From Paraclostridium ghonii (GTDB lineage Bacteria; Bacillota; Clostridia; Peptostreptococcales; Peptostreptococcaceae), in contig NZ_JAKEDR010000037.1 of the NCBI RefSeq assembly GCF_023653455.1, positions 1 to 24,885 on the forward strand: a stretch of 24,885 nucleotides of DNA, in the 5' to 3' direction. The position numbers and the translations under genes are program-made. The notes beneath the pieces are model-generated. The model saw only the letters and a list, made by a program, of their open reading frames with translations, was not told where the DNA came from and did no database searches. Positions 1 through 15,998 of this stretch are shown here, one piece after another (position 1 is the stretch's first letter; every line of letters begins with the position of its first letter).

Positions 1-233
1 AGATATATTAACATATTAAAAATGAAAATAATGTTAACACAAATAATAAATATTTCATATTGTATTAATGAAATATCATAGCACAAAAATATATTTTTAA
101 TAAAGGGGTTATAGATACGAACGATGGAATTTAAATGATTGTAGATATACTATTCAATACTTATACTAACCTTTTCTGGCCAAAATTTAATGACAAATTT
201 ATTTCTGTAAAGCAGAAATAAAAAATAAAAAAA
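1..233. other. Intergenic, no gene seen
   Basis: A/T-rich sequence before the first protease promoter. I see no coding frame of credible length or quality. A 9-bp perfect inverted repeat (positions 50-58 with 68-76, 9-nt loop) and a 7-bp one (201-207 with 213-219) are present. Neither is followed by a T-tract on the + strand, so I do not call them terminators. Any upstream gene lies outside the window. Confidence 0.5.
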
Positions 234-273
234 ATAGTTGACAATCAAACTAATCGTATATAGTATTTATAAT
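234..273 (+). promoter_or_regulatory. Promoter/operator box 1 of protease array
   Basis: The box holds TTGACA at 238-243, TATAGT at 259-264 (15-nt spacer) and TATAAT at 268-273 (24-nt spacer). Neither spacing is the usual 17, which suggests activator dependence or a different element. TTGACA lies inside an imperfect inverted repeat, TAGTTGA-caa-TCAAACTA, of the type bound by dimeric MarR-like repressors. The same box recurs at 2202-2241, 5982-6021 and 9750-9789. Confidence 0.6.
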
Positions 274-587
274 ACAAGAGCTAACAAAAGTATTTTCAAT
301 CTGAAACAAATCTTTTAATTTTCAATTATTTACAATCACAACAAATAAAAAAATATGATTTTAAATATCAACTTATTATCTATAGAGTTGATAAAAATAA
401 TGTTTATCTTAATTTTTTTATTTAATAATCTTAAGAACATTCCTCTTAAACTTTCGCAATAAACAAAAAATTTAAAAAACAACAAGCTGAAGACTTAAAT
501 AATATTTATACTTTTATGAAGCTAATATTGTTTAAGTAAAGAATCTAGATTACTTACTATAAAAATTTAATAAGGGAGATGGATTAA
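274..587 (+). promoter_or_regulatory. Long 5' leader of protease copy 1
   Basis: About 310 nt separate the promoter box from the start codon, with no open frame. Blocks of it recur in the leaders of copies 2, 4 and 6: an AACAAATAAA segment, a TTTCGCAATAAACAAAAA-type segment (437-461 here) and the final AATTTAATAAGGGAGA. A 7-bp hairpin (367-373 with 386-392) is kept in copy 2 at 2367-2392, with C-G changed to T-G, so pairing survives. An untranslated regulatory leader is inferred. Confidence 0.45.
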
Positions 588-2126
588 ATGTTTAAAAGAA
601 ATTTAGCTATTTTAACAATAGCGGGGTTATCATGCGGATTTTTAGCGCCTACAGTAAGTTTTGCAGATAGTCAAACAAAAGAGGAGTTACCACAAGCATA
701 TAATGTTAAGGCAGATCAAGATTTAAAAGATGTATTGAAAAATGTATCAGATGATTACAAAATAAAAGATAATGCAGACCAATATGAATTAGTTAAAAAA
801 GAAAAAGATGATTTAGGATTTACTCATTATACTTTAAAACCTAAAGTAGATGGATATTTTGCAGAATCGGCTGAAGTAAAAATCCATACAGATAAAACTG
901 GAAAAGTTGTTTTTGTAAATGGGGATTTAAATCAAGGGAAATTAGAAGTTAAAAATGAAACTAAAATAGATAAAGAAAAGGCTATTGAATTAGCGTTTAA
1001 AGGTATAGAAAAATCACGTGATGAAGTTAAAAACTTATCAGGGAAAGATGTTGTTCAAGAGGCAGGTATCACTGTTGATGAAAAGAGCAATAGAGCTATA
1101 TATTCTTTAGATATATCATATACTGTACCAGAAGCTGCTCACTGGATAATTAAAGTAGATGCAGAAAATGGAAATATAGTTGAAAAACAAAATATTTTAG
1201 AGCAAGCTGCACAAGCAGCAGGGACTGGAATAGGAACAGATGGTAAAGTTAAAAATTTAAATATAACAGAAGATAACGGTAAATATCAATTATTAGATAC
1301 TACTCATAAAGGTAAAATAGGAACTTTAGGATTTGAATCTTTTAAAGATGATGAAGAAAATTGGATAGTTGGAAGTCTTATTTCAAATATAAAGAATTTT
1401 TTCGACCAAGATAAAGCAGCAGTAGATGCTCACTATTTTACAAATGAAGTTTACAACTATTATAAAAATGTTCACAATAGAGAAAGTTACGACAATAAAG
1501 GGTCAGATATAAACTCTTATGTGCATGTTCAAGATCCTAACTATGGAGGAAATTGGAGTAATGCAGCTTGGACTGGTGTAGAAATGATTTATGGTGATGG
1601 AGATCCAGCAACAGAAAATCCATTCACAGCGGCAAATGATGTTATTGCTCATGAAATAACACATGGAGTTACAACATCATCAGCAAACTTAGTTTACAAA
1701 AATCAACCTGGAGCATTAAATGAATCATTTTCAGATGTATTTGGATATTTTGTAGATAGTGATGATTGGCTAATGGGTGAGGATTTATTTAAAAAACCAG
1801 GTGAAGCTATAAGAGATTTACAAAATCCTACAAAATATGGGCAACCGGATAATATGAAAAATTATAAAAATTGGCCAGAATGGTTAGACAAAGGAGGAGT
1901 TCATACAAATAGTGGTATCCCTAATAAAGCAGCATATAACACTATAACTAAAATAGGAAAAGAAAAATCAGAAAAAATTTATTATAGAGCTCTTACTCAA
2001 TATTTAACACAACAATCACAATTTACAGATGCTAAAAGTTCTTTAATTCAATCAGCAAAAGACCTTTATGGAGATAAAGTAGCTAACGATGTTAAAGCAT
2101 CATGGGATGAAGTTGGTGTAAATTAA
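588..2126 (+). CDS. Secreted M4 thermolysin-like neutral metalloprotease, copy 1
   Basis: Zinc endopeptidase (bacillolysin/thermolysin family, M4) expected to be exported and to degrade extracellular protein. The 512-aa preproenzyme has a signal peptide (residues 1-26, likely cut after SFA), an FTP plus PepSY inhibitory propeptide (about 35-205), then a mature domain of about 300 aa. The zinc motif HEITH has H355 and H359 with catalytic E356. The third ligand is E379 in GALNESFSD, 20 residues later as in thermolysin. Transition-state residues D434 and H439 lie in DKGGVH. The substrate-binding NAAW motif is at 325-328. The start is supported by AAGGGAGATGG 8 nt upstream. It has its own promoter box, long leader and terminator. 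All catalytic residues are present, so it is probably active. Confidence 0.97.
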   Translation: MFKRNLAILTIAGLSCGFLAPTVSFADSQTKEELPQAYNVKADQDLKDVLKNVSDDYKIKDNADQYELVKKEKDDLGFTHYTLKPKVDGYFAESAEVKIHTDKTGKVVFVNGDLNQGKLEVKNETKIDKEKAIELAFKGIEKSRDEVKNLSGKDVVQEAGITVDEKSNRAIYSLDISYTVPEAAHWIIKVDAENGNIVEKQNILEQAAQAAGTGIGTDGKVKNLNITEDNGKYQLLDTTHKGKIGTLGFESFKDDEENWIVGSLISNIKNFFDQDKAAVDAHYFTNEVYNYYKNVHNRESYDNKGSDINSYVHVQDPNYGGNWSNAAWTGVEMIYGDGDPATENPFTAANDVIAHEITHGVTTSSANLVYKNQPGALNESFSDVFGYFVDSDDWLMGEDLFKKPGEAIRDLQNPTKYGQPDNMKNYKNWPEWLDKGGVHTNSGIPNKAAYNTITKIGKEKSEKIYYRALTQYLTQQSQFTDAKSSLIQSAKDLYGDKVANDVKASWDEVGVN

Positions 2127-2135
2127 TTATGACTC

Positions 2136-2177
2136 AAAAAGCAACTGGAAGTCAGTTTTTAAATCCAGTTGCTTTTT
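2136..2177 (+). terminator. Intrinsic terminator after protease copy 1
   Basis: GCAACTGGA (2141-2149) pairs with TCCAGTTGC (2164-2172), flanked by A5 and T5. The same stem sequence follows copies 2-5, so it belongs to the duplicated unit. Confidence 0.9.
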
Positions 2178-2201
2178 CAATTTTAAAAAAATTTGAGAAA
2201 A

Positions 2202-2241
2202 ATAGTTGACAATCAAACTAACGGTATATACTATTTATAAT
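2202..2241 (+). promoter_or_regulatory. Promoter/operator box 2 of protease array
   Basis: Near-identical to the box at 234-273. TTGACA is at 2206-2211, TATACT at 2227-2232 and TATAAT at 2236-2241, with the same TAGTTGA-caa-TCAAACTA inverted repeat. Differences from box 1 fall mostly between the elements. Confidence 0.6.
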
Positions 2242-2593
2242 ACAAGAGAGAACATAATTATGTTTATAACATAAAATTTTCTATGCACAATTGTTTTAAT
2301 ATTGGACAAATCTTTTAAATTTCAATTACTCATTATCAAAACAAATAAACAGATATAATTTTAAATATTAACTTATGGATTATAAAGTTGATATAAATGA
2401 TGTTTGTCTTAAAAATTTTATTTAACAGTATCCTAAAAACATTCCTACAAAATTTTCATAATAAACAAAAATTCAAAACAATGGGTTAATGACTTAACTA
2501 ATATTTATATGCCATGAATTTAATATTATTTAAGTGAAGGGTTTATATTATTTATTAATTAAATTAAAAATTTAACAAGGGAGAGGGATTTAA
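2242..2593 (+). promoter_or_regulatory. Long 5' leader of protease copy 2
   Basis: A non-coding stretch of about 350 nt, homologous to the copy 1 leader through most of its length. The hairpin 2367-2373/2386-2392 is retained with a G-T wobble. It ends in AAGGGAGAGGG, the ribosome site shared by several copies. Confidence 0.45.
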
Positions 2594-4132
2594 ATGTTTA
2601 AAAGAAATTTAGCTATTTTAACAATAGCAGGGTTATCATGCGGATTTTTAGCGCCTACAATAAGTTATGCAGATAGTCAAACAAAAGAGGAGTTACCACA
2701 AGCATATAATGTTAAAGCAGATCAAGATTTAAAAGATGTATTAAAAAATGTATCCGATGATTACAAAGTAAAAGATAATGCAGATCAATATGAATTAGTT
2801 AAAAAAGAAAAAGATGATTTAGGATTTACTCATTACACTTTAAAACCTAAAGCAGATGGATATTTTGCAGAGTCTGCTGAAGTAAAAGTACATACAGATA
2901 AAACTGGAAAAGTTGTTTTTGTAAATGGAGATTTAAATCAAGGGAAATTAGAAGTTAAAAATGAAACTAAAATAGATAAAGAAAAGGCTATAGAATTAGC
3001 ATTTAAAAGCATAGAAAAATCACGTGATGAAGTTAAAAACTTATCAGGAAAAGATGTTGTTCAAGAGTCAGGCATTACTGTTGATGAAAAAAGTAATAGA
3101 GCTATATATTCTTTAGATATATCATACACTGTACCAGAAGCTGCTCATTGGATAATCAAAGTAGATGCAGAAAATGGTAATATAGTTGAAAAACAAAATA
3201 TTTTAGAACAAGCTGTAGGAGCAGTAGGTAGCGGAATAGGTACAGATGGTAAAGTTAAAAATTTAAATGTAACTTTCGATAAGGATAAATATGTGCTATT
3301 AGACACTACTCATAAAGGTAAAATAGGGACTTTAGGATTTGAATCTTTCCAAGAAGATGAAAATAATTGGATAGTTGGAAACCTTATCTCAAATATACAA
3401 AGATTTTTCGATAAAGATAAAGCAGCTGTAGATGCTCATTATTTTACAAATGAAGTTTACAACTACTATAAAGATGTTCACAATAGAGAAAGTTATGATG
3501 GAAAAGGTGCAGATATAAACTCTTATGTGCATGTTCAAGATCCTAGCTATGGAGGAAATTGGAGCAATGCGGCTTGGACTGGTGTAGAGATGATTTATGG
3601 TGATGGAGATCCAGCAACAGAAAATCCATTCACAGCGGCAAATGATGTTATTGCACATGAGATAACACATGGAGTTACAACATCATCAGCAAATTTAGTT
3701 TACAAATATCAACCAGGTGCATTAAATGAATCATTCTCAGATGTATTTGGATATTTTGTAGATAGTGATGATTGGTTAATGGGTGAGGATTTATTTAAAA
3801 ATCCTGGTGAAGCTATAAGAGATTTACAAGATCCTACAAAATATGAGCAACCAGCACATATGAAAGATTATAAAAATTGGCCAGGATGGTATGATAATGG
3901 AGGAGTTCATGTAAATAGTGGTATTCCTAACAAAGCAGCATATAACACTATAACTAAAATAGGAAAAGAAAAAGCAGAAAAAATTTACTATAGAGCTCTT
4001 ACTCAATATTTAACACAACAATCACAATTTACAGATGCTAAAAGTTCTTTAATTCAATCAGCAAAAGATATTTATGGGGATAAAGAAGCTAACGATATTA
4101 AAGCATCATGGGATGAAGTTGGTGTAAATTAA
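2594..4132 (+). CDS. Secreted M4 thermolysin-like neutral metalloprotease, copy 2
   Basis: 512 aa, colinear with copy 1: signal peptide ending SYA, FTP/PepSY propeptide, then the mature M4 domain. Zinc and catalytic residues are H355, E356, H359, E379, and H439 in DNGGVH. It shares with copy 3 a distinctive linker and mature N-terminus (AVGAVGSGIG, LNVTFDKDKY, SNIQRFFDKDK) that copy 1 lacks. Its centre around HEITH (TATENPF-type loop, SANLVYK) matches copy 1 closely, so the gene is a mosaic of neighbouring types. The loop before the final His reads NWPGWYDN. It has its own promoter box and terminator. Predicted secreted and active. Confidence 0.97.
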   Translation: MFKRNLAILTIAGLSCGFLAPTISYADSQTKEELPQAYNVKADQDLKDVLKNVSDDYKVKDNADQYELVKKEKDDLGFTHYTLKPKADGYFAESAEVKVHTDKTGKVVFVNGDLNQGKLEVKNETKIDKEKAIELAFKSIEKSRDEVKNLSGKDVVQESGITVDEKSNRAIYSLDISYTVPEAAHWIIKVDAENGNIVEKQNILEQAVGAVGSGIGTDGKVKNLNVTFDKDKYVLLDTTHKGKIGTLGFESFQEDENNWIVGNLISNIQRFFDKDKAAVDAHYFTNEVYNYYKDVHNRESYDGKGADINSYVHVQDPSYGGNWSNAAWTGVEMIYGDGDPATENPFTAANDVIAHEITHGVTTSSANLVYKYQPGALNESFSDVFGYFVDSDDWLMGEDLFKNPGEAIRDLQDPTKYEQPAHMKDYKNWPGWYDNGGVHVNSGIPNKAAYNTITKIGKEKAEKIYYRALTQYLTQQSQFTDAKSSLIQSAKDIYGDKEANDIKASWDEVGVN

Positions 4133-4141
4133 TCATGACTC

Positions 4142-4180
4142 AAAAGCAACTGGAAACAATTATTTGAATCCAGTTGCTTT
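4142..4180 (+). terminator. Intrinsic terminator after protease copy 2
   Basis: AAAAGCAACTGGA (4142-4154) pairs with TCCAGTTGCTTT (4169-4180). The T-tract is short (three T, then ATTT), so it may leak into copy 3, which has no promoter box of its own. Confidence 0.8.
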
Positions 4181-4321
4181 ATTTAAGAGTAAGTAAGGCT
4201 AGTATTTTTTATAATATAGAATTGTAATAAATATAAATTAACTTAAAAACTCATGAATTTAATGTTATTTTAAAACGATATTTACATAATAAACTAAAAA
4301 TTTAATAAGGGAGAGGGATTT

Positions 4322-5854
4322 ATGTTTAAGAGAAATTTAGCGATTTTAACAATAGCGGGGTTATCATGTGGTATTTTAGCGCCTACAATAAGTTATGCAG
4401 ATAGTCAGACAAAAGAGGAGTTACCACAAGCATATAATGTTAAAGCAGATCAAGATTTAAAAGATGTATTAAAAAATGTATCAGATGATTACAAAATAAA
4501 AGACAATGCAGATCAATATGAATTAGTTAAAAAAGAAAAAGATGATTTAGGATTTACTCATTATACTTTAAAACCTAAAGCAGATGGATATTTTGCAGAA
4601 ACAGCTGAGGTAAAGGTACATACAGATAAAACTGGAAAAGTTGTTTTTGTAAATGGAGATTTAAATCAAGGTAAATTAGAAGTTAAAAATGAAACTAAAA
4701 TAGATAAAGAAAAGGCTATAGAATTAGCATTTAAAGGTATAGAAAAATCGCGTGATGAAGTTAAAAACTTATCAGGAAAAGATGTTGTTCAAGAGTCAGG
4801 AATTACTGTTGATGAAAAAAGCAATAGAGCTATATACTCTTTAGATATAGCATACACTGTACCAGAAGCTGCTCATTGGATAATTAAAGTAGATGCAGAA
4901 AATGGTAATATAGTTGAAAAACAAAATATTTTAGAACAAGCTGTAGGAGCAGTAGGTAGTGGAATAGGTACAGATGGTAAAGTTAAAAATTTAAATGTAA
5001 CTTTCGATAAGGATAAATATGTGCTATTAGATACTACTCATAAAGGTAAAATAGGAACTTTAGGATTTGAATCTTTCCAAGACGATGAAAATAATTGGAT
5101 AGTTGGAAATCTTATATCAAATATACAAAGATTTTTCGATAAAGATAAAGCAGCTGTAGATGCTCACTATTTTACAAATGAAGTTTACAATTACTATAAA
5201 GATGTTCATAATAGAGAAAGTTATGACGGGAAAGGTGCAGATATAAACTCTTATGTACATGTTCAAGATCCTAATTATGGAGGAAATTGGAGTAATGCGG
5301 CTTGGACTGGTGTAGAGATGATTTATGGAGATGGAAATACAGCAACACAAAATCCTTTTACAGCTGCGAATGATGTTATTGCACATGAGATAACTCATGG
5401 AGTTACAACATCATCAGCTGATTTGGTTTACGAATATCAACCAGGAGCATTAAATGAATCATTCTCAGATGTATTTGGATATTTTGTAGATAGTGAAGAC
5501 TGGTTAATGGGTGAAGATTTATTCAAAACTCCTGGAAAAGCTATAAGAGACATGCAAAATCCAGAAAAATATGGTCAACCAGCACATATGAAAGACTATA
5601 AAAATAAAATAAGTGATCATGGGGGAGTTCATACAAACAGTGGTATTCCTAACAAAGCAGCATATAACACTATAACTAAAATAGGAAAAGAAAAATCAGA
5701 AAAAATCTACTATAGAGCTCTTACTCAATATTTAACACAACAATCACAGTTCTCAGATGCTAAAAGTTCTTTAATTCAATCAGCAAAAGATATTTATGGA
5801 GATAAAGAAGCTAATGATGTTAAAGCAGCATGGGATGAAGTTGGTGTAAATTAA
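4322..5854 (+). CDS. Secreted M4 thermolysin-like neutral metalloprotease, copy 3
   Basis: 510 aa, closest to copy 2 over the propeptide and mature N-terminal domain. The zinc motif is H355, E356, H359, with E379 and H437. The loop before GGVH is two residues shorter than in copies 1 and 2 (NKISDH), and the loop after YGDG reads NTATQN. The ATG at 4322 follows AAGGGAGAGGG with 6-nt spacing. Only 189 nt separate it from copy 2. That gap holds the copy 2 terminator and about 80 nt of leader remnant, but no TAGTTGACAATC box. A lone TATAAT at 4210-4215 without a good -35 is the only promoter candidate, so expression may come from read-through. Confidence 0.96.
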   Translation: MFKRNLAILTIAGLSCGILAPTISYADSQTKEELPQAYNVKADQDLKDVLKNVSDDYKIKDNADQYELVKKEKDDLGFTHYTLKPKADGYFAETAEVKVHTDKTGKVVFVNGDLNQGKLEVKNETKIDKEKAIELAFKGIEKSRDEVKNLSGKDVVQESGITVDEKSNRAIYSLDIAYTVPEAAHWIIKVDAENGNIVEKQNILEQAVGAVGSGIGTDGKVKNLNVTFDKDKYVLLDTTHKGKIGTLGFESFQDDENNWIVGNLISNIQRFFDKDKAAVDAHYFTNEVYNYYKDVHNRESYDGKGADINSYVHVQDPNYGGNWSNAAWTGVEMIYGDGNTATQNPFTAANDVIAHEITHGVTTSSADLVYEYQPGALNESFSDVFGYFVDSEDWLMGEDLFKTPGKAIRDMQNPEKYGQPAHMKDYKNKISDHGGVHTNSGIPNKAAYNTITKIGKEKSEKIYYRALTQYLTQQSQFSDAKSSLIQSAKDIYGDKEANDVKAAWDEVGVN

Positions 5855-5870
5855 TTTAAATTATGTAAAT

Positions 5871-5915
5871 AAAAAAGCAACTGGAAAATAGGCTTTTAAC
5901 CCCAGTTGCTTTTTT
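5871..5915 (+). terminator. Intrinsic terminator after protease copy 3
   Basis: A6 then GCAACTGG (5877-5884) pairs with CCAGTTGC (5902-5909), followed by T6. Same family as the terminators of copies 1, 2, 4 and 5. Confidence 0.88.
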
Positions 5916-5981
5916 ATTTGGGAAAATTTTGAAAACTGATATTAAAATACAAAAAATTATAATTGTTAAAAATTTCCAAAA

Positions 5982-6021
5982 ATAGTTGACAATTAAATTA
6001 ACGGTATATATTATTTATAAT
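5982..6021 (+). promoter_or_regulatory. Promoter/operator box 3 of protease array (copy 4)
   Basis: TTGACA is at 5986-5991 and TATAAT at 6016-6021, with the common GGTATATA-TATTTATAATACAAGAG context. The inverted repeat is slightly decayed here (AATTAAATTA instead of AATCAAACTA), so a regulator might bind this copy less well. Confidence 0.55.
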
Positions 6022-6297
6022 ACAAGAGACAACATAATTATGTTTAGTAAGAAAAAAGTAAATTTTGTATACAAAAATAGGTTTAACCTGTAGTAAATCT
6101 TTAAGTTTTTAATTATTTACAATTAAAACAAATATAAATATATAATTTTAAAATATGGGTATTAATTCTTTATTTAACTATAGAAACGTATTTTAAAAAT
6201 TTTCGCAATAAACAAAAAATTAAAAATAGTAGGTTTAAGTACAGGGGTTAGAGTGCTTAAAAGTAAAGTTAAAAAAATAACAAAGGGAGAGGGATTT
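6022..6297 (+). promoter_or_regulatory. 5' leader of protease copy 4
   Basis: About 275 nt, the shortest of the four long leaders. It keeps the AACAAATA and TTTTCGCAATAAACAAAAA blocks but has lost the segment with the 7-bp hairpin seen in copies 1 and 2. A GTG at 6253 opens an in-frame extension of 15 codons. I reject it as the start because the ribosome site AAGGGAGAGGG lies just before the ATG at 6298. Confidence 0.4.
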
Positions 6298-7824
6298 ATG
6301 TTTAAAAGAAATTTAGCTATTTTAACAATAGCAGGGTTATCATGCGGAGTTTTAGCACCTACAGTAAGTTTTGCAGATAGTCAAACAAAAGAAGAGTTAC
6401 CACAAGCTTATAATGTTAAAGCAGATCAAGATTTAAAAGATGTATTAAAAAATGTATCAGATGAGTACAAAGTAAAAGATAATGCGGATCAGTATGAATT
6501 AGTTAAAAAAGAAAAAGATGACTTAGGATTTACTCATTATACTTTAAAACCTAAAGTAGATGGATATTTTGCAGAATCGGCTGAAGTAAAAATTCATACA
6601 GATAAAACTGGAAAAGTGGTATTTGTAAATGGGGACTTAAACCAAGGGAAATTAGAAGTTAACAATGAAACTAAAATAGATAAAGAAAAAGCTATTGAAT
6701 TAGCGTTTAAAGGTATAGAAAAATCACGTGATGAAGTTAAAAATTTATCAGGAGAAGATGTTGTACAAGAGGCTAAAATTACTGTTGATGAGCAAAGTAA
6801 TAGAGCTGTATATTCTTTAGATATATCATATACTTTACCAGAAGCTGCACATTGGATAATTAAAGTAGATGCAGAAAATGGGAATATAGTTGAAAAACAA
6901 AATATTTTAGAACAAGTTTCACAAGTAGCAGGAACTGGAATAGGGTCAGATGGTAAAGTTAAAAATTTAAATATAACTGAAGATAATGGTAAATATCAAT
7001 TACTAGATAGTACGCATAAAGGTAAAATAATAACTAAAGCTTTTGAATCTTTTAAAGGTGACACAACAGTTGGAAACATTATTACAAATATAAAAAGTTT
7101 TTTCGATCAAGATAAAGCAGCTGTAGATGCTCACTATTTTACAAATCAAGTTTATAATTACTATAAAGATGTTCATAATAGAGAAAGTTACGATAATAAA
7201 GGGTCAGACATAAACTCTTATGTACATGTTCCAGAAGAGGATGGAACAAGCATGAGTAATGCGTATTGGAATGGCGTAGAGATGAGTTATGGTGACGGGG
7301 ACCAAAAAACAGAAAATGCTTTTACAGCAGCAAATGACGTTGTTGCACATGAGATAACACATGGAGTTACATCATCATCAGCTGACTTAGTTTACAGTAA
7401 ACAACCAGGTGCATTAAATGAATCATTCTCAGATGTATTTGGATATTTTGTAGATAGTGAAGACTGGTTAATGGGTGAAGATTTATATAAAGCACCTGGT
7501 GAAGCTATAAGAGATTTGCAAGATCCTACAAAATATGATCAACCAGCACATATGAAAGACTATAAAAATTATAGTTTAAGAAATGATAATGGTGGAGTTC
7601 ATACAAATAGTGGTATTCCTAATAAAGCAGCATACAATACTATAACTAAAATAGGAAAAGAAAAAGCAGAAAAAATTTATTACAGAGCTCTTACTCAATA
7701 CTTAACACCAAAATCACAATTTGCAGATGCTAAAAAATCTTTAATCCAATCAGCAAAAGATCTATATGGAGACAAAGTAGCTAATGATGTTAAAACAGCA
7801 TGGGATGAAGTTGGGGTAAATTAA
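6298..7824 (+). CDS. Secreted M4 thermolysin-like neutral metalloprotease, copy 4
   Basis: 508 aa from the ATG at 6298 (MFKRN, preceded by AAGGGAGAGGG). This gives the same signal peptide as its paralogues; an in-frame GTG 45 nt upstream would bury it. Catalytic set: H351, E352, H355, E375, and H435 in DNGGVH. It belongs with copy 7 to a distinct subtype. Both have a four-residue-shorter loop (FKGDTTVGNIITNIK), the segment HVPEEDGTSMSNAYWNGVEM instead of the DPNYGG-type loop, and MSYGDG rather than MIYGDG. These positions lie near the active-site cleft in thermolysin, so a different substrate preference is possible (inference). It has its own promoter box and terminator. Confidence 0.96.
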   Translation: MFKRNLAILTIAGLSCGVLAPTVSFADSQTKEELPQAYNVKADQDLKDVLKNVSDEYKVKDNADQYELVKKEKDDLGFTHYTLKPKVDGYFAESAEVKIHTDKTGKVVFVNGDLNQGKLEVNNETKIDKEKAIELAFKGIEKSRDEVKNLSGEDVVQEAKITVDEQSNRAVYSLDISYTLPEAAHWIIKVDAENGNIVEKQNILEQVSQVAGTGIGSDGKVKNLNITEDNGKYQLLDSTHKGKIITKAFESFKGDTTVGNIITNIKSFFDQDKAAVDAHYFTNQVYNYYKDVHNRESYDNKGSDINSYVHVPEEDGTSMSNAYWNGVEMSYGDGDQKTENAFTAANDVVAHEITHGVTSSSADLVYSKQPGALNESFSDVFGYFVDSEDWLMGEDLYKAPGEAIRDLQDPTKYDQPAHMKDYKNYSLRNDNGGVHTNSGIPNKAAYNTITKIGKEKAEKIYYRALTQYLTPKSQFADAKKSLIQSAKDLYGDKVANDVKTAWDEVGVN

Positions 7825-7851
7825 TTTACATTATATAAATTAATTATGAAT

Positions 7852-7895
7852 AAAAAAGCAACTGGAATTAAGTTTTTAAATCCAGTTGCTTTTTT
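7852..7895 (+). terminator. Intrinsic terminator after protease copy 4
   Basis: A6 then GCAACTGGA (7858-7866) pairs with TCCAGTTGC (7881-7889), followed by T6. Member of the shared terminator family. Confidence 0.9.
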
Positions 7896-7923
7896 ACGTT
7901 TTAAAAAATTTTTCATCTACTAA

Positions 7924-7964
7924 GGGATTATAAATTATCTGATTTGTAGATAAGTTATAATCCC
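7924..7964. repeat. Long inverted repeat (hairpin) before copy 5
   Basis: A 17-bp stem with one mismatch (7924-7940 with 7948-7964) and a 7-nt loop. The ends are GGG/CCC. No T-tract follows on either side, so it is not a standard terminator. It has no counterpart upstream of the other protease copies. Confidence 0.7.
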
Positions 7965-7974
7965 AACTGCTAAA

Positions 7975-8043
7975 CTTGAGCAACGGACCTGCTTTCCAAG
8001 GTCGTTGGCGACATAAAGTAGTTCGCAGACGTAGTCGCTCAAG
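7975..8043. repeat. G+C-richer foldable insert, possible structured RNA or dispersed repeat
   Basis: Sixty-nine nt with about 52% G+C by my count, in an A/T-rich region. Outer arms CTTGAGC (7975-7981) and GCTCAAG (8037-8043) pair perfectly, and pairing extends to 10 bp with one mismatch. Inside are GACCT/AGGTC (7986-7990 with 7999-8003) and GCGA/TCGC (8008-8011 with 8023-8026), giving a three-way-junction fold. GCGAC at 8008-8012 could instead pair with GTCGC at 8034-8038. It replaces the promoter and most of the leader expected before copy 5. I do not recognise the family. Confidence 0.5.
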
Positions 8044-8096
8044 CAAAGTGAATTTTTATTACTTAGTTTAATATTTTTAATAAGGGAGATAGAATA

Positions 8097-9629
8097 ATGT
8101 TTAAAAGAAATATAGCTATTTTAACAATAGTAGGGCTATCATGTGGGGTTTTCGCTCCTACAGTAAGTTATGCAGATAGTCAAACCAAAGAAGAGTTACC
8201 GCAAGGTTATAATGTTAAAGGAGATAACGATGTAAAAGATGTGTTAAAAAATGTATCAGATGAGTATAAAATAAAAGAGAATGCAAATCAATACGAATTA
8301 GTTAAAAAAGAAAAAGATGATTTAGGATTTACTCATTATACTTTAAAACCTAAGGTAGATGGATATTTTGCACAATCGGCTGAAGTGAAAATCCATACGG
8401 ATAAAACTGGAAAGGTTGTTTTTATAAATGGGGACTTAAATCAAGGTAAATTAGAAATTAAGAATGATACTAAAATAGATAAAGAAAAAGCTATACAATT
8501 AGCTTTTAAAGGTATAGAAAAATCACGTGATGAAGTTAAATCCTTATCTGGTAAAGACGTTGTTCAAGAGGTTAAAATTGCTGTTGATGAAAAAAGTAAT
8601 AGAGCTATATATTCTTTAGATATATCATATGCTTTACCAGAAGCTGCTCACTGGATAATCAAAGTAGATGTAGAAAATGGGAATATAGTTGAAAAACAAA
8701 ATATTTTAGAACAAGCTACACAAGTAGTAGGGACTGGAATAGGTACAGATGATAAAATTAAAAATTTAAATATAACTGAAGATAAGGGTAAATATATGTT
8801 ATTAGATACTACCCATAAGGGTGAAATAGGGACTTTGAATTTTGAATTTTTCGAGTTTGGAAATACTATCATTGGAAATATAATTTCAAATATAAAAAAC
8901 TTTTTCGATAAAGATAAAGCAGCGGTAGATGCTCATTATTTTACAAATGAAGTTTATAACTATTATAAAAATGTGCACAATAGAGAAAGTTACGATGGAA
9001 ACGGATCAGATATAAATTCTTATGTTCATGTTCCTAATCCAAAATCAGGAGGAAGTTGGAGTAATGCAGCTTGGACTGGATCATATATGATTTACGGGGA
9101 TGGGGATTCAGCAACAGAAAATCCTTTTTCAGCAGCAAATGACGTTATTGCACATGAGATAACTCATGGGGTGACTTCATCTTCAGCTAATTTAGTTTAT
9201 AGCAAACAATCGGGAGCATTAGATGAATCATTCTCGGATGTATTTGGATATTTTGTAGATAGTGAAGACTGGACAATGGGTGAAGATTTATTTAAAACAC
9301 CTGGGAAAGCTATAAGAGATTTACAAGATCCTACAAAATATGGTCAACCAGCACATATGAAAGACTATAAAGATTATGAATTATGGTCAGATAATGGAGG
9401 GGTTCATACAAATAGTGGGATTCCTAATAAAGCAGCATATAATACTATAACTAAAATAGGAAAAGAAAAAGCAGAAAAAATTTACTATAGAGCTCTTACT
9501 CAATATTTAACACAACAATCACAATTCACAGATGCTAAAAGTTCTTTAATTCAATCAGCAAAAGATCTTTATGGAGATAAAGAAGCTAATGATGTTAAAA
9601 CAGCATGGGATGAAGTTGGTGTAAATTAA
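8097..9629 (+). CDS. Secreted M4 thermolysin-like neutral metalloprotease, copy 5
   Basis: 510 aa. Catalytic set: H353, E354, H357, E377, and H437 in DNGGVH. It is one of the more divergent copies. The signal peptide reads MFKRNIAILTIVGLSCGVFAP. The conserved GALNESFSD is GALDESFSD, next to the zinc ligand. The motif NAAWTGVEM is NAAWTGSYM. The early mature loop is FEFFEFGNTIIG. Its propeptide shares a 152-nt identical stretch with copy 6 (8287-8438 equals 10289-10440). Upstream there is no promoter box, only a foldable insert and about 30 nt resembling the end of the common leader before AAGGGAGATAG. How it is transcribed is unclear. The protein itself looks intact. Confidence 0.96.
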   Translation: MFKRNIAILTIVGLSCGVFAPTVSYADSQTKEELPQGYNVKGDNDVKDVLKNVSDEYKIKENANQYELVKKEKDDLGFTHYTLKPKVDGYFAQSAEVKIHTDKTGKVVFINGDLNQGKLEIKNDTKIDKEKAIQLAFKGIEKSRDEVKSLSGKDVVQEVKIAVDEKSNRAIYSLDISYALPEAAHWIIKVDVENGNIVEKQNILEQATQVVGTGIGTDDKIKNLNITEDKGKYMLLDTTHKGEIGTLNFEFFEFGNTIIGNIISNIKNFFDKDKAAVDAHYFTNEVYNYYKNVHNRESYDGNGSDINSYVHVPNPKSGGSWSNAAWTGSYMIYGDGDSATENPFSAANDVIAHEITHGVTSSSANLVYSKQSGALDESFSDVFGYFVDSEDWTMGEDLFKTPGKAIRDLQDPTKYGQPAHMKDYKDYELWSDNGGVHTNSGIPNKAAYNTITKIGKEKAEKIYYRALTQYLTQQSQFTDAKSSLIQSAKDLYGDKEANDVKTAWDEVGVN

Positions 9630-9637
9630 GTATGTTT

Positions 9638-9680
9638 AAAAAGCAACTGGAAATGATATTTTAAATTCAGTTGCTTTTTT
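9638..9680 (+). terminator. Intrinsic terminator after protease copy 5
   Basis: AAAAAGCAACTG (9638-9649) pairs with CAGTTGC (9668-9674), followed by T6. The G-A pair next to the loop is changed (TTCAG instead of TCCAG), slightly shortening the stem relative to the others. Confidence 0.85.
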
Positions 9681-9749
9681 AATACATGAAAAATTGCAAA
9701 GTGAACTTTTTTATTTAATAAAAAGCAAGTATTATAAAAATTTAAAAAA

Positions 9750-9789
9750 ATAGTTGACAATCAAACTAATGGCATATAATATTTATAAT
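9750..9789 (+). promoter_or_regulatory. Promoter/operator box 4 of protease array (copies 6-8)
   Basis: TTGACA is at 9754-9759. There is a consensus TATAAT at 9775-9780 (15-nt spacer) and a second TATAAT at 9784-9789, with the same inverted repeat TAGTTGA-caa-TCAAACTA. It probably drives the three-gene unit of copies 6-8, which has no later box or terminator. Confidence 0.6.
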
Positions 9790-10098
9790 ACAAGGAAAAA
9801 GGAAAAAAATACCAAATTTAAATTAATTTTAATATGTATCAAATCTTTAAATTTTCAATTATTTATTATCAAAACAAATAAAAGTATAAATAAAAAATAT
9901 AAATTAAAAAATATGTATATTAATTTTTTTATTTAACTGTATCCTTAAAACATTTCTCTTAATTTCACAATAAATAAAAAATTTCAAAAACAAAAAGACC
10001 TAATTAATACTCTTGAAATATAAATATAATGCTATCTAAATACACGATTTATATTATTCACATAATTAAATTAAAAATTTAATAAGGGAGAGGGATTT
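9790..10098 (+). promoter_or_regulatory. Long 5' leader of protease copy 6
   Basis: About 310 nt without credible coding potential. It retains the TCAATTATTTATTATCAAAACAAATAAA-like block, the TTTCACAATAAATAAAAAATT block and the AATTTAATAAGGGAGAGGG ribosome-site end. The 7-bp hairpin of copies 1 and 2 is not recognisable. Confidence 0.4.
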
Positions 10099-11631
10099 AT
10101 GTTTAAAAGAAATTTAGCTATTTTAACAATAGTGGGGTTGTCGTGTGGATTTTTAGTACCTACGTTAAGTTATGCAGATAGTCAAACCAAAGAAGAATTA
10201 CCACAAGCTTATAATGTTAAATCGGACAAGGATTTAAAGGATGTATTAAAAAATGTATCAGATGAATATAAAATAAAAGATAATTCAGATCAATACGAAT
10301 TAGTTAAAAAAGAAAAAGATGATTTAGGATTTACTCATTATACTTTAAAACCTAAGGTAGATGGATATTTTGCACAATCGGCTGAAGTGAAAATCCATAC
10401 GGATAAAACTGGAAAGGTTGTTTTTATAAATGGGGACTTAGATCAAGGTAAATTGGAAGTTAAAAATGAGACTAAAATAGATAAAGAAAAAGCTATACAA
10501 TTAGCTTTTAAATGTATAGAAAAATCACGTGATGAAGTTAAAAACTTATCAGGAAAAGATGTTTTAAAAGAGCCTGAAATTACTGTTGATGAAAAAAGTA
10601 ATAGAGCTATATATGCTTTAGATATATCATATACTTTACCAGAAGCTGCTCACTGGATAATCAAAGTAGATGCGGAAAACGGCAACATAATTGAAAAACA
10701 AAATATTTTAGAACAAGCTACACAAGTAGCAGGAACTGGAATAGGTACAGATGGTAAAGTTAAAGATTTAAATATAACAGAGGATAATGGTAAATATGTG
10801 CTATTAGATACTACTCATAAAGGTAAAATCGGAACTTTACAATTTGAATCTTTTGAAGGTAGTGATGACAGTTGGATACTTGGAAGCCTTATTTCAAATA
10901 TAAAGAATTTTTTCGACCAAGATAAAGCAGCTGTAGATGCTCATTATTTTACAAATGAAGTTTACGACTATTATAAAACTGTACACGATAGAGAAAGTTA
11001 CGATGGAAAAGGAGCAGATATAAATTCTTATGTACATGTTCCAGATCCGAACTATGGAGGAGATTGGAGCAATGCAGCTTGGACTGGCATAGAGATGATT
11101 TATGGAGATGGGAATCCATCAACACAAAATGCTTTTACAGCAGCAAATGATGTTATTGCACATGAAATAACACATGGAGTTACATCATCATCAGCTGGTT
11201 TAGATTATCAATTTCAACCAGGTGCATTAAATGAGTCATTTTCGGATGTATTTGGATATTTTGTAGATAGTGAAGATTGGACAATGGGTGAAGATTTATA
11301 CAAAGAACCTGGCAAAGTTATAAGAGATTTACAAAACCCTGAAAGATGCGAGCAACCATCACATATGAAAGACTATAAATATATGTTAAGTGATCATGGA
11401 GGGGTTCATAAAAATAGTGGAATTCCTAACAAAGCAGCATATAATACTATAACTAAAATAGGAAAAGAAAAATCAGAAAAAATTTACTATAGAGCTCTTA
11501 CTCAATATTTAACAAGACAAGCACAGTTCTCAGATGCTAAAAGTTCTTTAATTCAATCAGCAAAAGACCTTTATGGAGATAAAGAAGCTAATGATGTTAA
11601 AGTAGCATGGGATGAAGTTGGAGTGAAATAA
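10099..11631 (+). CDS. Secreted M4 thermolysin-like neutral metalloprotease, copy 6
   Basis: 510 aa. Catalytic set: H355, E356, H359, E379, and H437 in DHGGVH. First gene of a likely three-protease transcript (copies 6-8). It carries two cysteines unusual for the array: one in the PepSY region (FKCIEKS) and one in the mature domain (PERCEQP). The second is shared with copy 8 inside a nearly identical nucleotide block (YKEPGKV to PERC), suggesting exchange between copies 6 and 8. The loop after HEITHGVT reads SSSAGLDYQFQ, unlike the others. The ATG at 10099 follows AAGGGAGAGGG. It has no terminator of the GCAACTGG family. Confidence 0.96.
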   Translation: MFKRNLAILTIVGLSCGFLVPTLSYADSQTKEELPQAYNVKSDKDLKDVLKNVSDEYKIKDNSDQYELVKKEKDDLGFTHYTLKPKVDGYFAQSAEVKIHTDKTGKVVFINGDLDQGKLEVKNETKIDKEKAIQLAFKCIEKSRDEVKNLSGKDVLKEPEITVDEKSNRAIYALDISYTLPEAAHWIIKVDAENGNIIEKQNILEQATQVAGTGIGTDGKVKDLNITEDNGKYVLLDTTHKGKIGTLQFESFEGSDDSWILGSLISNIKNFFDQDKAAVDAHYFTNEVYDYYKTVHDRESYDGKGADINSYVHVPDPNYGGDWSNAAWTGIEMIYGDGNPSTQNAFTAANDVIAHEITHGVTSSSAGLDYQFQPGALNESFSDVFGYFVDSEDWTMGEDLYKEPGKVIRDLQNPERCEQPSHMKDYKYMLSDHGGVHKNSGIPNKAAYNTITKIGKEKSEKIYYRALTQYLTRQAQFSDAKSSLIQSAKDLYGDKEANDVKVAWDEVGVK

Positions 11632-11730
11632 TATATAAATTTGAAAGAAATAAAAAGTTAATTTTTTAGAACTTATGAAGCTAATATTATTCACATAATT
11701 AAATTAAAATTTAATAAGGGAGAGATGTGT

Positions 11731-13251
11731 ATGTTTAAAAGAAATTTAGCTATTTTAACAATAGCAGGGTTGTCATGTGGAGTTTTAGCACCTACAGTAA
11801 GTTTTGCAGATAGTCAAACAAAAGAGGAGTTACCACAAGCTTATAATGTTAAAGCAGATCAAGATTTAAAAGATGTATTAAAAAATGTATCAGATGAGTA
11901 CAAAGTAAAAGATAATGCAGACCAATACGAATTAGTTAAAAAAGAAAAAGATGATTTAGGATTTACTCATTATACTTTAAAACCTAAAGCAGATGGATAT
12001 TTTGCAGAAGCAGCGGAAGTAAAAATTCATACAGACAAAACTGGAAAAGTTGTATTTGTAAATGGGGATTTAGATCAAGGAAAACTAGAAGTTAATAATG
12101 AAATAAAAATAGATAAAGAAAAGGCTATACAATTAGCTTTTAATGCAATAGAAAAATCACGTGATGAAGTTAAGAATTTATCAGGACAAGATGTTGTTCA
12201 AGAAGCTAAAATAGCTGTTGATGAAAAAAGCAATAGAGCTATATATGCTCTAGATATATCATATACGGTACCAGAGGCTGCTCACTGGATAATTAAAGTA
12301 GATGCAGAAAACGGTAATATAGTTGAAAAACAAAGTGTTTTAGAACAAGTTGCACAAGCATCAGGTACTGGAATAGGTACGGATGGCAAAGTTAAAAATT
12401 TAAATATAACTGAAGATAATGGGAAATATCAATTATTAGATAGTACTCATAAAGGTAAAATAGTAACTAAAGGTTTTGAATCTTTCCAAGGTAATACAAC
12501 AGTTGGAAGTATTATTACAAATATAAAAAACTTTTTCGATCAAGATAAAGCAGCAGTAGATGCTCACTATTTTACAAATGAAGTTTACAATTACTATAAA
12601 GATGTTCACGATAGAGAAAGTTATGATGGAAAAGGATCAGATATAAACTCTTATGTACATGTTCCAGAGAAGAATGGAGAAAGCATGAGTAATGCTTATT
12701 GGAATGGTGTAGAGATGAGTTATGGTGATGGGGATCCAACAATATTTAATGCTTTTTCAGCAGCAAATGACGTTGTTGCACATGAGATAACACATGGAGT
12801 TACAACATCATCAGCTGATTTAATTTATATGAACCAACCAGGAGCATTGAATGAATCATTCTCAGATGTATTTGGATATTTTATAGATAGTGATGATTGG
12901 ACAATGGGTGAAGATTTATATAAAACACCTGGTAAAGCTATAAGAGATATGCAAGATCCTACAAAATATGGGCAACCAGCACATATGAAAAATTATAAAA
13001 TTACATTGCTAGACCGTGGAGGAGTTCATACAAATAGTGGTATTCCTAACAAAGCAGCATATAACACTATAACAAAAATAGGAAAAGAAAAATCAGAAAA
13101 AATTTACTATAGAGCTCTTACTCAATACCTAACAAGACAATCAAAATTTAAAGATGCTAAAAGTTCTTTAATTCAATCAGCAAAAGATATTTATGGAGAT
13201 AAAGACGCTAATGATGTTAAAGCAGCTTGGGATGAAGTTGGGGTGAAATAA
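11731..13251 (+). CDS. Secreted M4 thermolysin-like neutral metalloprotease, copy 7
   Basis: 506 aa, the shortest copy. I chose the second of two in-frame ATGs (11725 and 11731). The second matches the MFKRN start of all paralogues and leaves 6 nt after AAGGGAGAG, whereas the first abuts the ribosome site. Catalytic set: H351, E352, H355, E375, and H433 in DRGGVH. It is the same subtype as copy 4 (FQGNTTVGSIITNIK, HVPEKNGESMSNAYWNGVEM, MSYGDG), although copies 5 and 6 lie between them. The loop before GGVH is short (ITLLDR). Only 99 nt separate it from copy 6, the last ~50 of them a leader remnant, so it is probably co-transcribed with copies 6 and 8. Confidence 0.96.
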   Translation: MFKRNLAILTIAGLSCGVLAPTVSFADSQTKEELPQAYNVKADQDLKDVLKNVSDEYKVKDNADQYELVKKEKDDLGFTHYTLKPKADGYFAEAAEVKIHTDKTGKVVFVNGDLDQGKLEVNNEIKIDKEKAIQLAFNAIEKSRDEVKNLSGQDVVQEAKIAVDEKSNRAIYALDISYTVPEAAHWIIKVDAENGNIVEKQSVLEQVAQASGTGIGTDGKVKNLNITEDNGKYQLLDSTHKGKIVTKGFESFQGNTTVGSIITNIKNFFDQDKAAVDAHYFTNEVYNYYKDVHDRESYDGKGSDINSYVHVPEKNGESMSNAYWNGVEMSYGDGDPTIFNAFSAANDVVAHEITHGVTTSSADLIYMNQPGALNESFSDVFGYFIDSDDWTMGEDLYKTPGKAIRDMQDPTKYGQPAHMKNYKITLLDRGGVHTNSGIPNKAAYNTITKIGKEKSEKIYYRALTQYLTRQSKFKDAKSSLIQSAKDIYGDKDANDVKAAWDEVGVK

Positions 13252-13271
13252 TTTAATAAGGAGAAGGGTGT

Positions 13272-14798
13272 ATGTTTAAAAGAAATTTAGCTATTTTAAC
13301 TATAGCAGGGTTGACATGTGGGTTTTTAGCCCCTACTGCAAGTTTTGCAGATAGCCAAACAAAAGAGGAGCTACCACAAGCTTATAATGTTAAATCAGAT
13401 AAAGATTTAAAAGATGTATTAAAAAATGTATCGGATGAATACAAAATAAAAAATAATGCAGATCAATATGAATTAGTAAAAAAAGAAAAAGATGATTTAG
13501 GATTTACTCATTACACTTTAAAGCCTAAAGCAGATGGATATTTTGCAGAAGATGCAGAAGTAAAAATTCATACAGATAAGACCGGAAAAGTTGTTTTTGT
13601 AAACGGGGATCTAAATCAAGGTAAATTAGAAGTCAAAAACGAAACAAAAATAGATAAAGAAAAAGCTATACAATTAGCTTTTAATGCAATAGAAAAATCA
13701 CGCGATGAAGTTAAAAATTTATCGGGAGAGGATGTTGTTAAGGAATCTAAAATAGCTGTTGATGAAAAAAGTAATAGAGCGATATATGCTTTAGATATAG
13801 CATACACTTTACCAGAAGCTGCTCACTGGATAATCAAAGTAGATGCAGAAAATGGGAATATAGTTGATAAACAAAATATTTTAGAACTAGCTTCTCAAGT
13901 ATCGGGTACTGGAGTGGGTACAGATGGTAAAGTTAAAAATTTAAATATGACTTTAGGTGATGATAATAAATATGTATTATTAGATACTACTCATAAAGGA
14001 AAAATAGAAACTTTGGCTTTTGAATCTTTTAGAGGAACTGGAGAGAGTTGGATAATTGGAAATCCTATTACAAACATAAAGAATTTTTTCGAGGATAAAG
14101 CAGCAGTAGATGCTCATTACTTTGCAAATGAAGTTTACAATTACTATAAAAATATTCACAATAGAGAAAGTTACGATAATAAAGGTGCAAATATAAGATC
14201 TATTGTTCATATTGCTCTTACACTAGGACATTGGAGTAATGCAGCTTGGAATGGAGTAGAGATGATTTATGGTGATGGGGATCCAGAAACAGAAAACCCT
14301 TTTTCGGCAGCGAAAGACGTTGTTGCACATGAGATAACACATGCAGTTACTTCATCTTCAGCAGCTTTAGTTTATGAATTTCAACCAGGAGCATTAAATG
14401 AATCATTCTCAGATGTATTTGGATATTTTGTAGATAATGACGATTGGACAATGGGTGAAGATTTATACAAAGAACCTGGCAAAGTTATGAGAGATTTACA
14501 AAATCCTGAAAGATGTGGACAACCAGCACATATGAAAGATTATCAAAATTCTGATGATGATTATGGTGGAGTTCATTTAAATAGTGGTATTCCTAATAAA
14601 GCAGCATATAATACTATAACTAAAATAGGACAAGAAAAAGCAGAAAAGATTTACTATAGAGCTCTTACTAAATATTTAACAAAACAATCACAGTTTTCAG
14701 ATGCTAAAAACTCTTTAATTCAATCAGCAAAAGATCTTTATGGAGACAAAGAAGCTAATGATGTTAAAGAAGCATGGGATAAAGTTGGTGTAAACTAA
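13272..14798 (+). CDS. Secreted M4 thermolysin-like neutral metalloprotease, copy 8
   Basis: 508 aa and the most divergent mature domain. Catalytic set: H353, E354, H357, E373-377 region ligand in GALNESFSD, and H435 in DYGGVH. Distinctive points: HEITHAVTSSSAALVY (Ala after the second His, as in thermolysin's HELTHAV); NIRSIVHIALTLGHWSN replacing the DINSYVHVQDPNYGGNWSN-type loop; one residue missing in NFFEDKAAVDAH; and a PERC cysteine shared with copy 6. It follows copy 7 by only 20 nt, containing AATAAGGAGAAGG as ribosome site, so it is the last gene of the 6-7-8 unit. No terminator of its own is seen. The stop codon is directly followed by the next promoter. Confidence 0.95.
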   Translation: MFKRNLAILTIAGLTCGFLAPTASFADSQTKEELPQAYNVKSDKDLKDVLKNVSDEYKIKNNADQYELVKKEKDDLGFTHYTLKPKADGYFAEDAEVKIHTDKTGKVVFVNGDLNQGKLEVKNETKIDKEKAIQLAFNAIEKSRDEVKNLSGEDVVKESKIAVDEKSNRAIYALDIAYTLPEAAHWIIKVDAENGNIVDKQNILELASQVSGTGVGTDGKVKNLNMTLGDDNKYVLLDTTHKGKIETLAFESFRGTGESWIIGNPITNIKNFFEDKAAVDAHYFANEVYNYYKNIHNRESYDNKGANIRSIVHIALTLGHWSNAAWNGVEMIYGDGDPETENPFSAAKDVVAHEITHAVTSSSAALVYEFQPGALNESFSDVFGYFVDNDDWTMGEDLYKEPGKVMRDLQNPERCGQPAHMKDYQNSDDDYGGVHLNSGIPNKAAYNTITKIGQEKAEKIYYRALTKYLTKQSQFSDAKNSLIQSAKDLYGDKEANDVKEAWDKVGVN

Positions 14799-14827
14799 TT
14801 GACAAATCGGTTTATATATAATAAAAT
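14799..14827 (+). promoter_or_regulatory. Promoter of the trpP T-box leader
   Basis: TTGACA (14799-14804), a 17-nt spacer and TAAAAT (14822-14827) give a near-consensus vegetative promoter. Its -35 begins at the first base after the stop codon of protease copy 8. Transcription would start near 14834. Confidence 0.7.
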
Positions 14828-14879
14828 TTAAATAAATTTAATATAAATCCTGAGAAAAGGGATAGTAACTAAATTTAGG

Positions 14880-15120
14880 TTCAATATAGAGAGTCGAGGG
14901 TGGTGGAAGCTTGACAAGAAGTAATTTAGGGAATGGGCCTTTGAGGAGCAAATTGAAATCAGAAGTATATGAGAGTAGACTTTGCCGTATATCGCACGTT
15001 ATAGCGAATAGGGTATGATAGTACCTGAAATTGAGTGATGTGCAATATACTTTTATTGTACATAAATTAGGTGGCAACGCGGATATACTCCGTCCTATTA
15101 ATATAGGACGGAGTTTTTTT
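14880..15120 (+). promoter_or_regulatory. T-box riboswitch, tryptophan specifier
   Basis: The tRNA-sensing leader controls read-through of its terminator in response to uncharged tRNA. The Stem I start AGAGAGTCGAGGGTGGTGGA is at 14888. The specifier context GAATGGGCC places codon TGG (Trp) at 14934-14936. The conserved T-box AGGTGGCAACGCGG is at 15069-15082. Its TGGC would pair with an acceptor end GCCA, which fits a G discriminator base as in tRNA-Trp. The terminator follows at 15088. The downstream transporter family independently agrees with tryptophan. Expected logic: low charged tRNA-Trp opens trpP expression. Confidence 0.93.
15088..15120 (+). terminator. T-box leader terminator
   Basis: CTCCGTCCTAT (15088-15098) pairs perfectly over 11 bp with ATAGGACGGAG (15103-15113), has a 4-nt loop and is followed by T7. 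The competing antiterminator would use the T-box at 15069-15082. This may also be the first effective stop for transcripts from protease copies 6-8. Confidence 0.92.
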
Positions 15121-15249
15121 ATTGCCCAAAAAATTAAAAGGTGGTGGTAAGGATGATGTGAAAAGATAACTCAAAAGATAGCGATTTATATCACTGGATA
15201 TTAATAGTGAAAAATAAAAAATATTTTAAAATTCTAGGAGGAAATGATT

Positions 15250-15816: not shown

Positions 15817-15842
15817 ATATGAATATAAAAAAATAGATTAAT

Positions 15843-15881
15843 ATATGAAGAGGCATTGAAACATACAATGCCTTTTCATAT
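15843..15881 (+). terminator. Terminator after trpP
   Basis: GGCATTG (15852-15858) pairs with CAATGCC (15866-15872). Outer A/T pairs extend the stem to about 16 bp with one G-T wobble, and TTTT follows the core. Confidence 0.75.
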
Positions 15882-15898
15882 ATAATTAAAAAAGTTTG

Positions 15899-15907
15899 TG
15901 ATATAAT
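15899..15907 (+). promoter_or_regulatory. Extended -10 promoter of the CPBP gene
   Basis: A TG-A-TATAAT sequence is a full match to the extended -10 form. No good -35 lies 17 nt upstream, which extended -10 promoters do not need. It is about 92 nt before the start codon at 15999. Confidence 0.5.
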
Positions 15908-15998
15908 TATTAAATGTAAAAATTTCCATTTTATAATTTAAAAATATATAAATAGGGATTTTAGTAAAAAAGGTATCTGGTATTTAAGGGGGAAATAA

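Follow-up and report, generated by a model that had tools for sequence, protein, structure and literature searches.

Eight tandem thermolysin-type protease genes in Paraclostridium ghonii look like an old, recombining family

What keeps eight full-length copies of one protease gene side by side in a bacterial genome? The stretch of DNA analyzed here (the window) is the whole 24,885-bp contig C299 of the 3.53-Mb, 374-contig genome of Paraclostridium ghonii, and positions 588–14798 of its plus strand hold eight complete M4 (thermolysin/aureolysin-type) prepropeptidase genes arranged head to tail. We read this array, with a probability of about 0.62, as a tandem family of secreted proteases, diversified, recombining, and in part separately controlled, which arose by an old expansion at an ancestral M4 locus. 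The genes themselves, their intactness, age, pattern of selection, and regulatory anatomy, and the incongruence between their segments can all be observed directly in the DNA, and they carry the argument that follows.

Intactness, setting, and copy number of the array

The eight open reading frames (ORFs) encode proteins of 506–512 aa with no internal stops. Identity to copy 1 is 92, 91, 87, 85, 85, 86, and 82% for copies 2–8, respectively, copy 8 being the lowest. All eight contain the FTP propeptide, Peptidase_M4, and Peptidase_M4_C domains above the Pfam cut-offs, and PepSY is absent from their matches (Pfam, E 0.001). The residues H142, H146, E166, E143, Y157, R203, D226, and H231 (thermolysin numbering) are kept in 8/8 copies; every copy thus has the family signature of HExxH, a downstream glutamate zinc ligand, and Tyr157, His231, and Asp226. 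Copy 5 has Asp where thermolysin has Asn165, and copy 8 carries several one-off changes. The signal peptide was read by eye from the common N terminus, as were the start codons from their ribosome-binding sites, which favor 6298 over the GTG at 6253 in copy 4 and place the start of copy 7 at 11731. A sequence-only reading of this DNA had proposed eight intact tandem genes at this place, with HEITH, the Glu ligand, and the D-x-GGVH motif retained throughout, and ORFs, Pfam domains, and residues confirm it on both counts. The features of the array and its edges are as follows; NAAW and NAYW denote two classes of the mature N-lobe, taken up below.

34–233, no strand: left flank, 73% identical to sister intergenic DNA plus the 5' end of a 250-aa gene (blastn, L027 19213–19016; matches in G001 and G004)
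588–2126, plus strand: M4 copy 1, 512 aa, NAAW class
2594–4132, plus strand: M4 copy 2, 512 aa, NAAW class
4322–5854, plus strand: M4 copy 3, 510 aa, NAAW class, no conserved promoter upstream
6298–7824, plus strand: M4 copy 4, 508 aa, NAYW class
8097–9629, plus strand: M4 copy 5, 510 aa, NAAW class, no conserved promoter upstream
10099–11631, plus strand: M4 copy 6, 510 aa, NAAW class, head of a likely 6-7-8 operon
11731–13251, plus strand: M4 copy 7, 506 aa, NAYW class, 99 bp past copy 6
13272–14798, plus strand: M4 copy 8, 508 aa, NAAW class, 20 bp past copy 7
14843–15100, plus strand: T-box leader (RF00230) of the TrpP gene, 115.2 bits, right edge of the array
15244–15816, plus strand: TrpP-family transporter gene (PF17099), conserved right neighbor by synteny

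By sequence, the nearest solved relative is aureolysin, and a predicted model, made for copy 1 only (mean pLDDT 84.3), matches the aureolysin fold with 53% identity and a TMt (by target length) of 0.95. The array copies share fold, zinc site, catalytic residues, and FTP propeptide with aureolysin and thermolysin, and differ in that eight paralogues stand at one locus. These likenesses mark the copies as M4 family members with predicted zinc-dependent endopeptidase activity and self-maturation.

How unusual is this copy number? Whole-protein and Pfam searches of the P. ghonii genome found no M4_C gene outside the array. Among five other genomes of the genus, four have one copy, and the fifth, which is 75% complete, has none. 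A full-protein query matched 11 of 40 relatives, and PF02868 occurs in 19/393 genomes of a class sample (at most three copies in the others) and in 14/398 of a phylum sample (at most two), the P. ghonii genome being counted in each of the three. In another clostridial family (that of G351), 50/206 genomes have PF02868, with a maximum of four copies, and in a further small genus 4/11 genomes have M4 matches, at most two each. These samples overlap and contain one genome per species; among all genomes sampled, P. ghonii has the most M4 genes, and the earlier suspicion that the copy number is out of the ordinary is borne out. We found no earlier description of this array among top-ranked literature results, which covered few subscription papers. 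In Paraclostridium benzoelyticum, two contigs (L009 and L036) end inside the M4 leader, the assembly being broken on both sides, which a collapsed second copy would explain. A collapsed array or second copy may be hidden in that assembly, but P0010, a protein identical to that of P. benzoelyticum, comes from 12 reported contigs, the longest of 73,067 bp.

The single M4 copy of the sister genome G001 sits at the same place as the array, and both edges of the array can be recognized there. Because the left flank matches the sister single-copy locus, copy 1 appears to be the first of the array; the 250-aa left neighbor gene is intact in G001 and mostly missing in the window. On the right, the TrpP gene likewise lies downstream of the one M4 copy seen in G001 and in P. 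benzoelyticum (L009), and G001 also shares the promoter and leader. With both edges matching the flanks of a single-copy locus, the set of eight looks complete, and truncation of the array at the contig start is unlikely. An assembly artefact is also unlikely: at 82–92% identity to copy 1, copies 2–8 are too divergent for a simple assembly duplication, and the same or related proteins occur on other, longer contigs. A 3,308,179-bp contig carries the clusters represented by proteins identical to copies 2, 4, and 5; for the clusters represented by relatives of copies 3, 6, 7, and 8 (98, 92, 98, and 97% identical), the longest contig is 168,385 bp. Proteins bearing the name P. ghonii are 92, 98, and 97% identical to copies 6, 7, and 8 and 93% identical to the 486-aa neighbor. 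A mobile origin was considered and rejected, since the best plasmid matches are partial (60–80% DNA identity, 7 records) and matches in phage records fall below 60% protein identity (17 records). The window contains no tRNA genes.

Age, selection, and mosaic structure

How old are the copies, and what has shaped them since? Nei–Gojobori synonymous distances (dS) between copies range from 0.215 to 0.472 (mean 0.373), and those between the copies and the genes of G001 and P. benzoelyticum from 0.374 to 0.570. The closeness of the two ranges speaks against a very recent amplification, one of the explanations that the sequence-only reading had offered. The other part of that suggestion, selection as the reason for the lack of pseudogenes, is supported: all eight genes are intact, and selection on them is purifying, more strongly on signal peptide and propeptide (omega of means 0.144) than on the mature enzyme (0.304), with 0.237 for the whole gene. 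Changes unique to one copy (nonsynonymous/synonymous) number 4/8, 1/4, 0/12, 8/16, 21/11, 10/12, 13/13, and 31/24 in copies 1–8, and their per-site ratio is highest in copy 5 (0.48) and copy 8 (0.33). By region, pN/pS is 0.18 in the signal peptide and propeptide (prepro), 0.52 in four variable blocks taken together (around residues 40–66, 106–132, 154–161, and 221–232, picked after inspection), 0.80 in residues 221–232, and 0.29 in the rest of the mature part.

In the mature domains, 109 of 311 positions vary (thermolysin numbering). Position 114, in the S1 pocket, is Tyr in copies 4 and 7, as in pseudolysin, and Ala in the other six, as in aureolysin. Several of the variable loops presumably border the thermolysin cleft. 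Such differences may have altered specificity among the copies.

The mature N-lobe falls into two classes, NAAW and NAYW, which are common to several species; the segments on either side of it group by species. Trees of the three segments, each built from all 32 aligned rows, conflict accordingly. In the prepro tree, the twelve ghonii-type sequences stand together (98.6), and the data reject an NAYW clade (p-AU 0.016). In the N-lobe tree, NAYW rows from several species and sources form a group (99.9), and placing all ghonii rows in one clade is rejected (p-AU 0.0017). In the C-segment tree, ghonii rows come together weakly (77.7) and an NAYW clade is again rejected (p-AU 0.00027). A 25-row run (without Mmang, P0007, P0011, P0014, P0015, P0020, and P0022) gave the same pattern, the 32-row run being stronger for the N-lobe. 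Because N-lobe classes cross species while flanking segments group by species, we conclude that segments have been exchanged. Between copies 5 and 6, an identical tract at columns 64–114 is longer than expected (GENECONV-like permutation test, 1/2000), and some 40-column blocks of P0003 and P0002, the respective relatives of copies 6 and 3, are matched better by other copies. In the pairs P0016+P0018 and P0019+P0021, one member is NAYW and the other NAAW. The members of each pair report a longest contig of the same size (22,800 bp for P0016+P0018, 67,822 bp for P0019+P0021), an equality from which they appear to be linked. Two copies are seen in each of these sets, as against eight in the array, and their division between the two classes suggests an old, candidate ancestral two-class state.

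Tentatively, these patterns might be taken one step further. The locus could be a recombining specificity repertoire, in which the N-lobe (approximately residues 210–355 of copy 1) is a cassette open to exchange, flanked by a propeptide and a C-lobe that are both conserved. The NAAW and NAYW classes would then pass between paralogues and across species, the array would serve as a reservoir, and the copies without a conserved promoter would be among the donors.

Several results weigh against a diversified, recombining family, and we set them out together. The substrate-subpocket residues listed in Table 3 of PMC12316308 are not enriched for replacement (5/19, at positions 114, 130, 134, 193, and 202, vs. 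109/311 overall; Fisher p 0.47). Positions with at least three states are not significantly clustered (the densest 10-residue window was reached by 1822/5000 permutations and the number of adjacent pairs by 412/5000), and no 15-codon window has pN/pS above 1, the highest being 0.96. On the side of recombination, many forks were open in an earlier 27-row tree run, the ghonii clade of the C-segment has the low support given above, the NAYW group was defined with the alignment already in view, and the tract of only 1 of the 28 pairs passes the global conversion test, the next being reached by 414/2000 permutations.

Regulatory anatomy and other elements of the window

Are the eight genes controlled as one? 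A conserved promoter-like site followed by a leader of ~300 nt stands only before copies 1, 2, 4, and 6, a terminator-like hairpin follows each of copies 1–5, and the leaders differ in their palindromes:

238–266, plus strand: promoter-like site of copy 1, TTGACA-17-TAGTAT, aligned with the sister genome
2136–2182, plus strand: terminator-like hairpin after copy 1, GCAACTGG...CCAGTTGC plus a T run, -17.2 kcal/mol
2206–2234, plus strand: promoter-like site of copy 2, TTGACA-17-TACTAT
2251–2264, no strand: palindrome AACATAATTATGTT in the copy 2 leader, operator candidate
4141–4186, plus strand: terminator-like hairpin after copy 2, -19.4 kcal/mol
5870–5920, plus strand: terminator-like hairpin after copy 3, -18.5 kcal/mol
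5986–6014, plus strand: promoter-like site of copy 4, TTGACA-17-TATTAT
6031–6044, no strand: palindrome AACATAATTATGTT in the copy 4 leader, operator candidate
6062–6077, no strand: second palindrome ATTTTGTATACAAAAA, one mismatch from ATTTTGTATACAAAAT of the sister leaders, best kept before copy 4
7850–7900, plus strand: terminator-like hairpin after copy 4, -22.6 kcal/mol
9638–9682, plus strand: terminator-like hairpin after copy 5, -16.0 kcal/mol
9754–9782, plus strand: promoter-like site of copy 6, TTGACA-17-TAATAT

Promoter-like matches over positions 1–16000 are not above shuffles in number (87 vs. 99.6), so the evidence for the promoters is their conservation, not their count. A pattern built from the four sites has just these four matches across the window, and 100 shuffles gave none. 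The site aligns with that of G001, and inspection by eye shows it in the G002, G005, and Romboutsia lituseburensis leaders as well. Copies 3 and 5 lie downstream of a terminator-like hairpin, lack the conserved promoter, and keep their ribosome-binding sites. The region scan gave weak promoter-like matches (27 weaker ones beyond those listed), and the best listed near copy 5 (8068–8095, 9/12) ends just before the start codon. The GCAACTGG...CCAGTTGC hairpin with its T run occurs after copies 1–5 only and was not found at the sister single-copy loci. A general terminator scan with a loop limit of 8 (three found vs. 3.0 expected) missed these hairpins because their loops are long.

Exact matches to AACATAATTATGTT in the genome lie upstream of copies 2 and 4 only, and a reversed control pattern matched at one place. 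By eye the palindrome is also present in the single-copy leaders of G001, G005, and G002 and absent before copies 1 and 6; it is a likely operator. For ATTTTGTATACAAAAA, 3/100 window shuffles gave as many matches at two mismatches. Copies 6, 7, and 8, with gaps of 99 and 20 bp, likely form an operon that would run into the TrpP T-box. Directly after copy 8, positions 14799–15114 hold a promoter-like site and the T-box leader of TrpP, with no terminator recognized between; the T-box could thus stop the 6-7-8 transcript or let it continue.

Other elements of the window stand apart from these controls. One lies between copies 4 and 5:

7908–8060, no strand: copy of a dispersed repeat with at least 41 matches in the P. 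ghonii genome (this copy included; 40 of 124 candidates scored)

The repeat has two predicted hairpins and may be a miniature mobile element; no Rfam family matches it above threshold, and the sub-threshold matches are chance-like. To the right, a 278-aa membrane protein gene (15999–16835), which looks CPBP-like by eye from a motif, lies between the TrpP gene and a gene for a BNR/WD40-like protein (16852–18312); in the sister genome that place is taken by a 459-aa permease-like gene on the other strand (L027 13615–14994). Beyond P. ghonii, the nearest named relatives of the BNR/WD40-like protein among the matches listed are from Bacillus (about 63–66%); identity is 51% for the sordellii relative in that listing and 64% for the G001 neighbor. 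Horizontal transfer of this gene is possible.

Competing explanations and significance

Why would eight copies persist? The sequence-only reading had named dosage and diversity as possible causes. On the dosage explanation, equivalent copies are kept because more secreted protease helps a protein-fermenting anaerobe; eight intact genes with their catalytic residues, purifying selection, the same conserved promoter on four copies, and subpockets not enriched for change all agree with it. However, dS of 0.2–0.5 is accompanied by replacements that are more frequent in the mature part than in the propeptide, the copy 1 and copy 6 leaders have lost the palindromes, suggesting different control, and copies 3 and 5 lack the conserved promoter, which would be odd if dosage mattered; we consider dosage unlikely as the cause. 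Diversity fits better, as the propeptides are far more alike than the mature domains and the copies differ in promoter and palindrome content. Still less probable, in our judgment, is neutral persistence, in which an array made by unequal crossing-over has not yet been lost and purifying selection acts mostly against misfolded secreted protein. The lack of any window with pN/pS above 1, the same unenriched subpockets, and the one copy in four sister genomes are compatible with it, but dS is near the sister-species level with no pseudogene among eight, copy 3 has 0 nonsynonymous against 12 synonymous unique changes, and relatives of copies 3, 7, and 8 are kept at 97–98% identity in an apparent other strain.

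The regulatory anatomy raises one further explanation: copies 3 and 5 might be silent donors, whose sequence would reach expression only once converted into a copy that has a promoter. They stand behind terminator-like hairpins without a conserved promoter, there is exchange between copies, and the unique changes of copy 5 (21 to 11) fit less constraint. Against this, unique changes show the strongest constraint in copy 3 (0 to 12), which points to expression, both copies have kept ribosome-binding sites, and the weak promoter-like matches exist and read-through is possible; we regard silent donors as very improbable. Overall, the array has the look of a long-standing, recombining set that is retained for its variety, as opposed to the product of a recent duplication accident.

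On the reading of a diversified, recombining family, one ancestral M4 locus upstream of trpP would have expanded to eight copies in the P. ghonii lineage. Duplication probably moved whole units of promoter, ~300-nt leader, gene, and terminator, and some copies would later have lost promoter and leader. Homologous exchange would keep the signal peptide, propeptide, and C-lobe similar within the lineage, with the old N-lobe classes and the surface loops staying distinct. From family knowledge, each gene is expected to yield a secreted aureolysin/thermolysin-type zymogen that is exported, folds on its own propeptide, activates itself, and cuts extracellular proteins. Activity, expression, and different specificity are what we infer here, as is the likely benefit: a mixture of related, in part separately regulated proteases, which together would cut more kinds of protein than one enzyme could.

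Clusters of homologous secreted proteases have a precedent in the spl operon of Staphylococcus aureus, which encodes as many as six serine proteases, all secreted. Complementary substrate specificities are attributed to SplA, B, D, and E (PMC7926377). Like that operon, the array consists of several intact tandem paralogues; unlike it, it has eight copies with several promoters and terminators, and by Pfam they are M4 metalloproteases, a family unrelated to the Spl serine proteases. Spores of the organism (as Clostridium ghonii) have been given to tumor-bearing mice as an anti-tumor agent (PMC6512072), and the word "protease" does not occur in that paper's main text; the enzymes may have practical interest through this use. 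What is new here is the conserved promoter on copies 1, 2, 4, and 6 only, the N-lobe classes that cross species, and variation that is not enriched in the subpockets. With eight intact paralogues, conserved propeptides, and varied mature domains, the array is a natural set in which to test how the specificity of secreted proteases diversifies.

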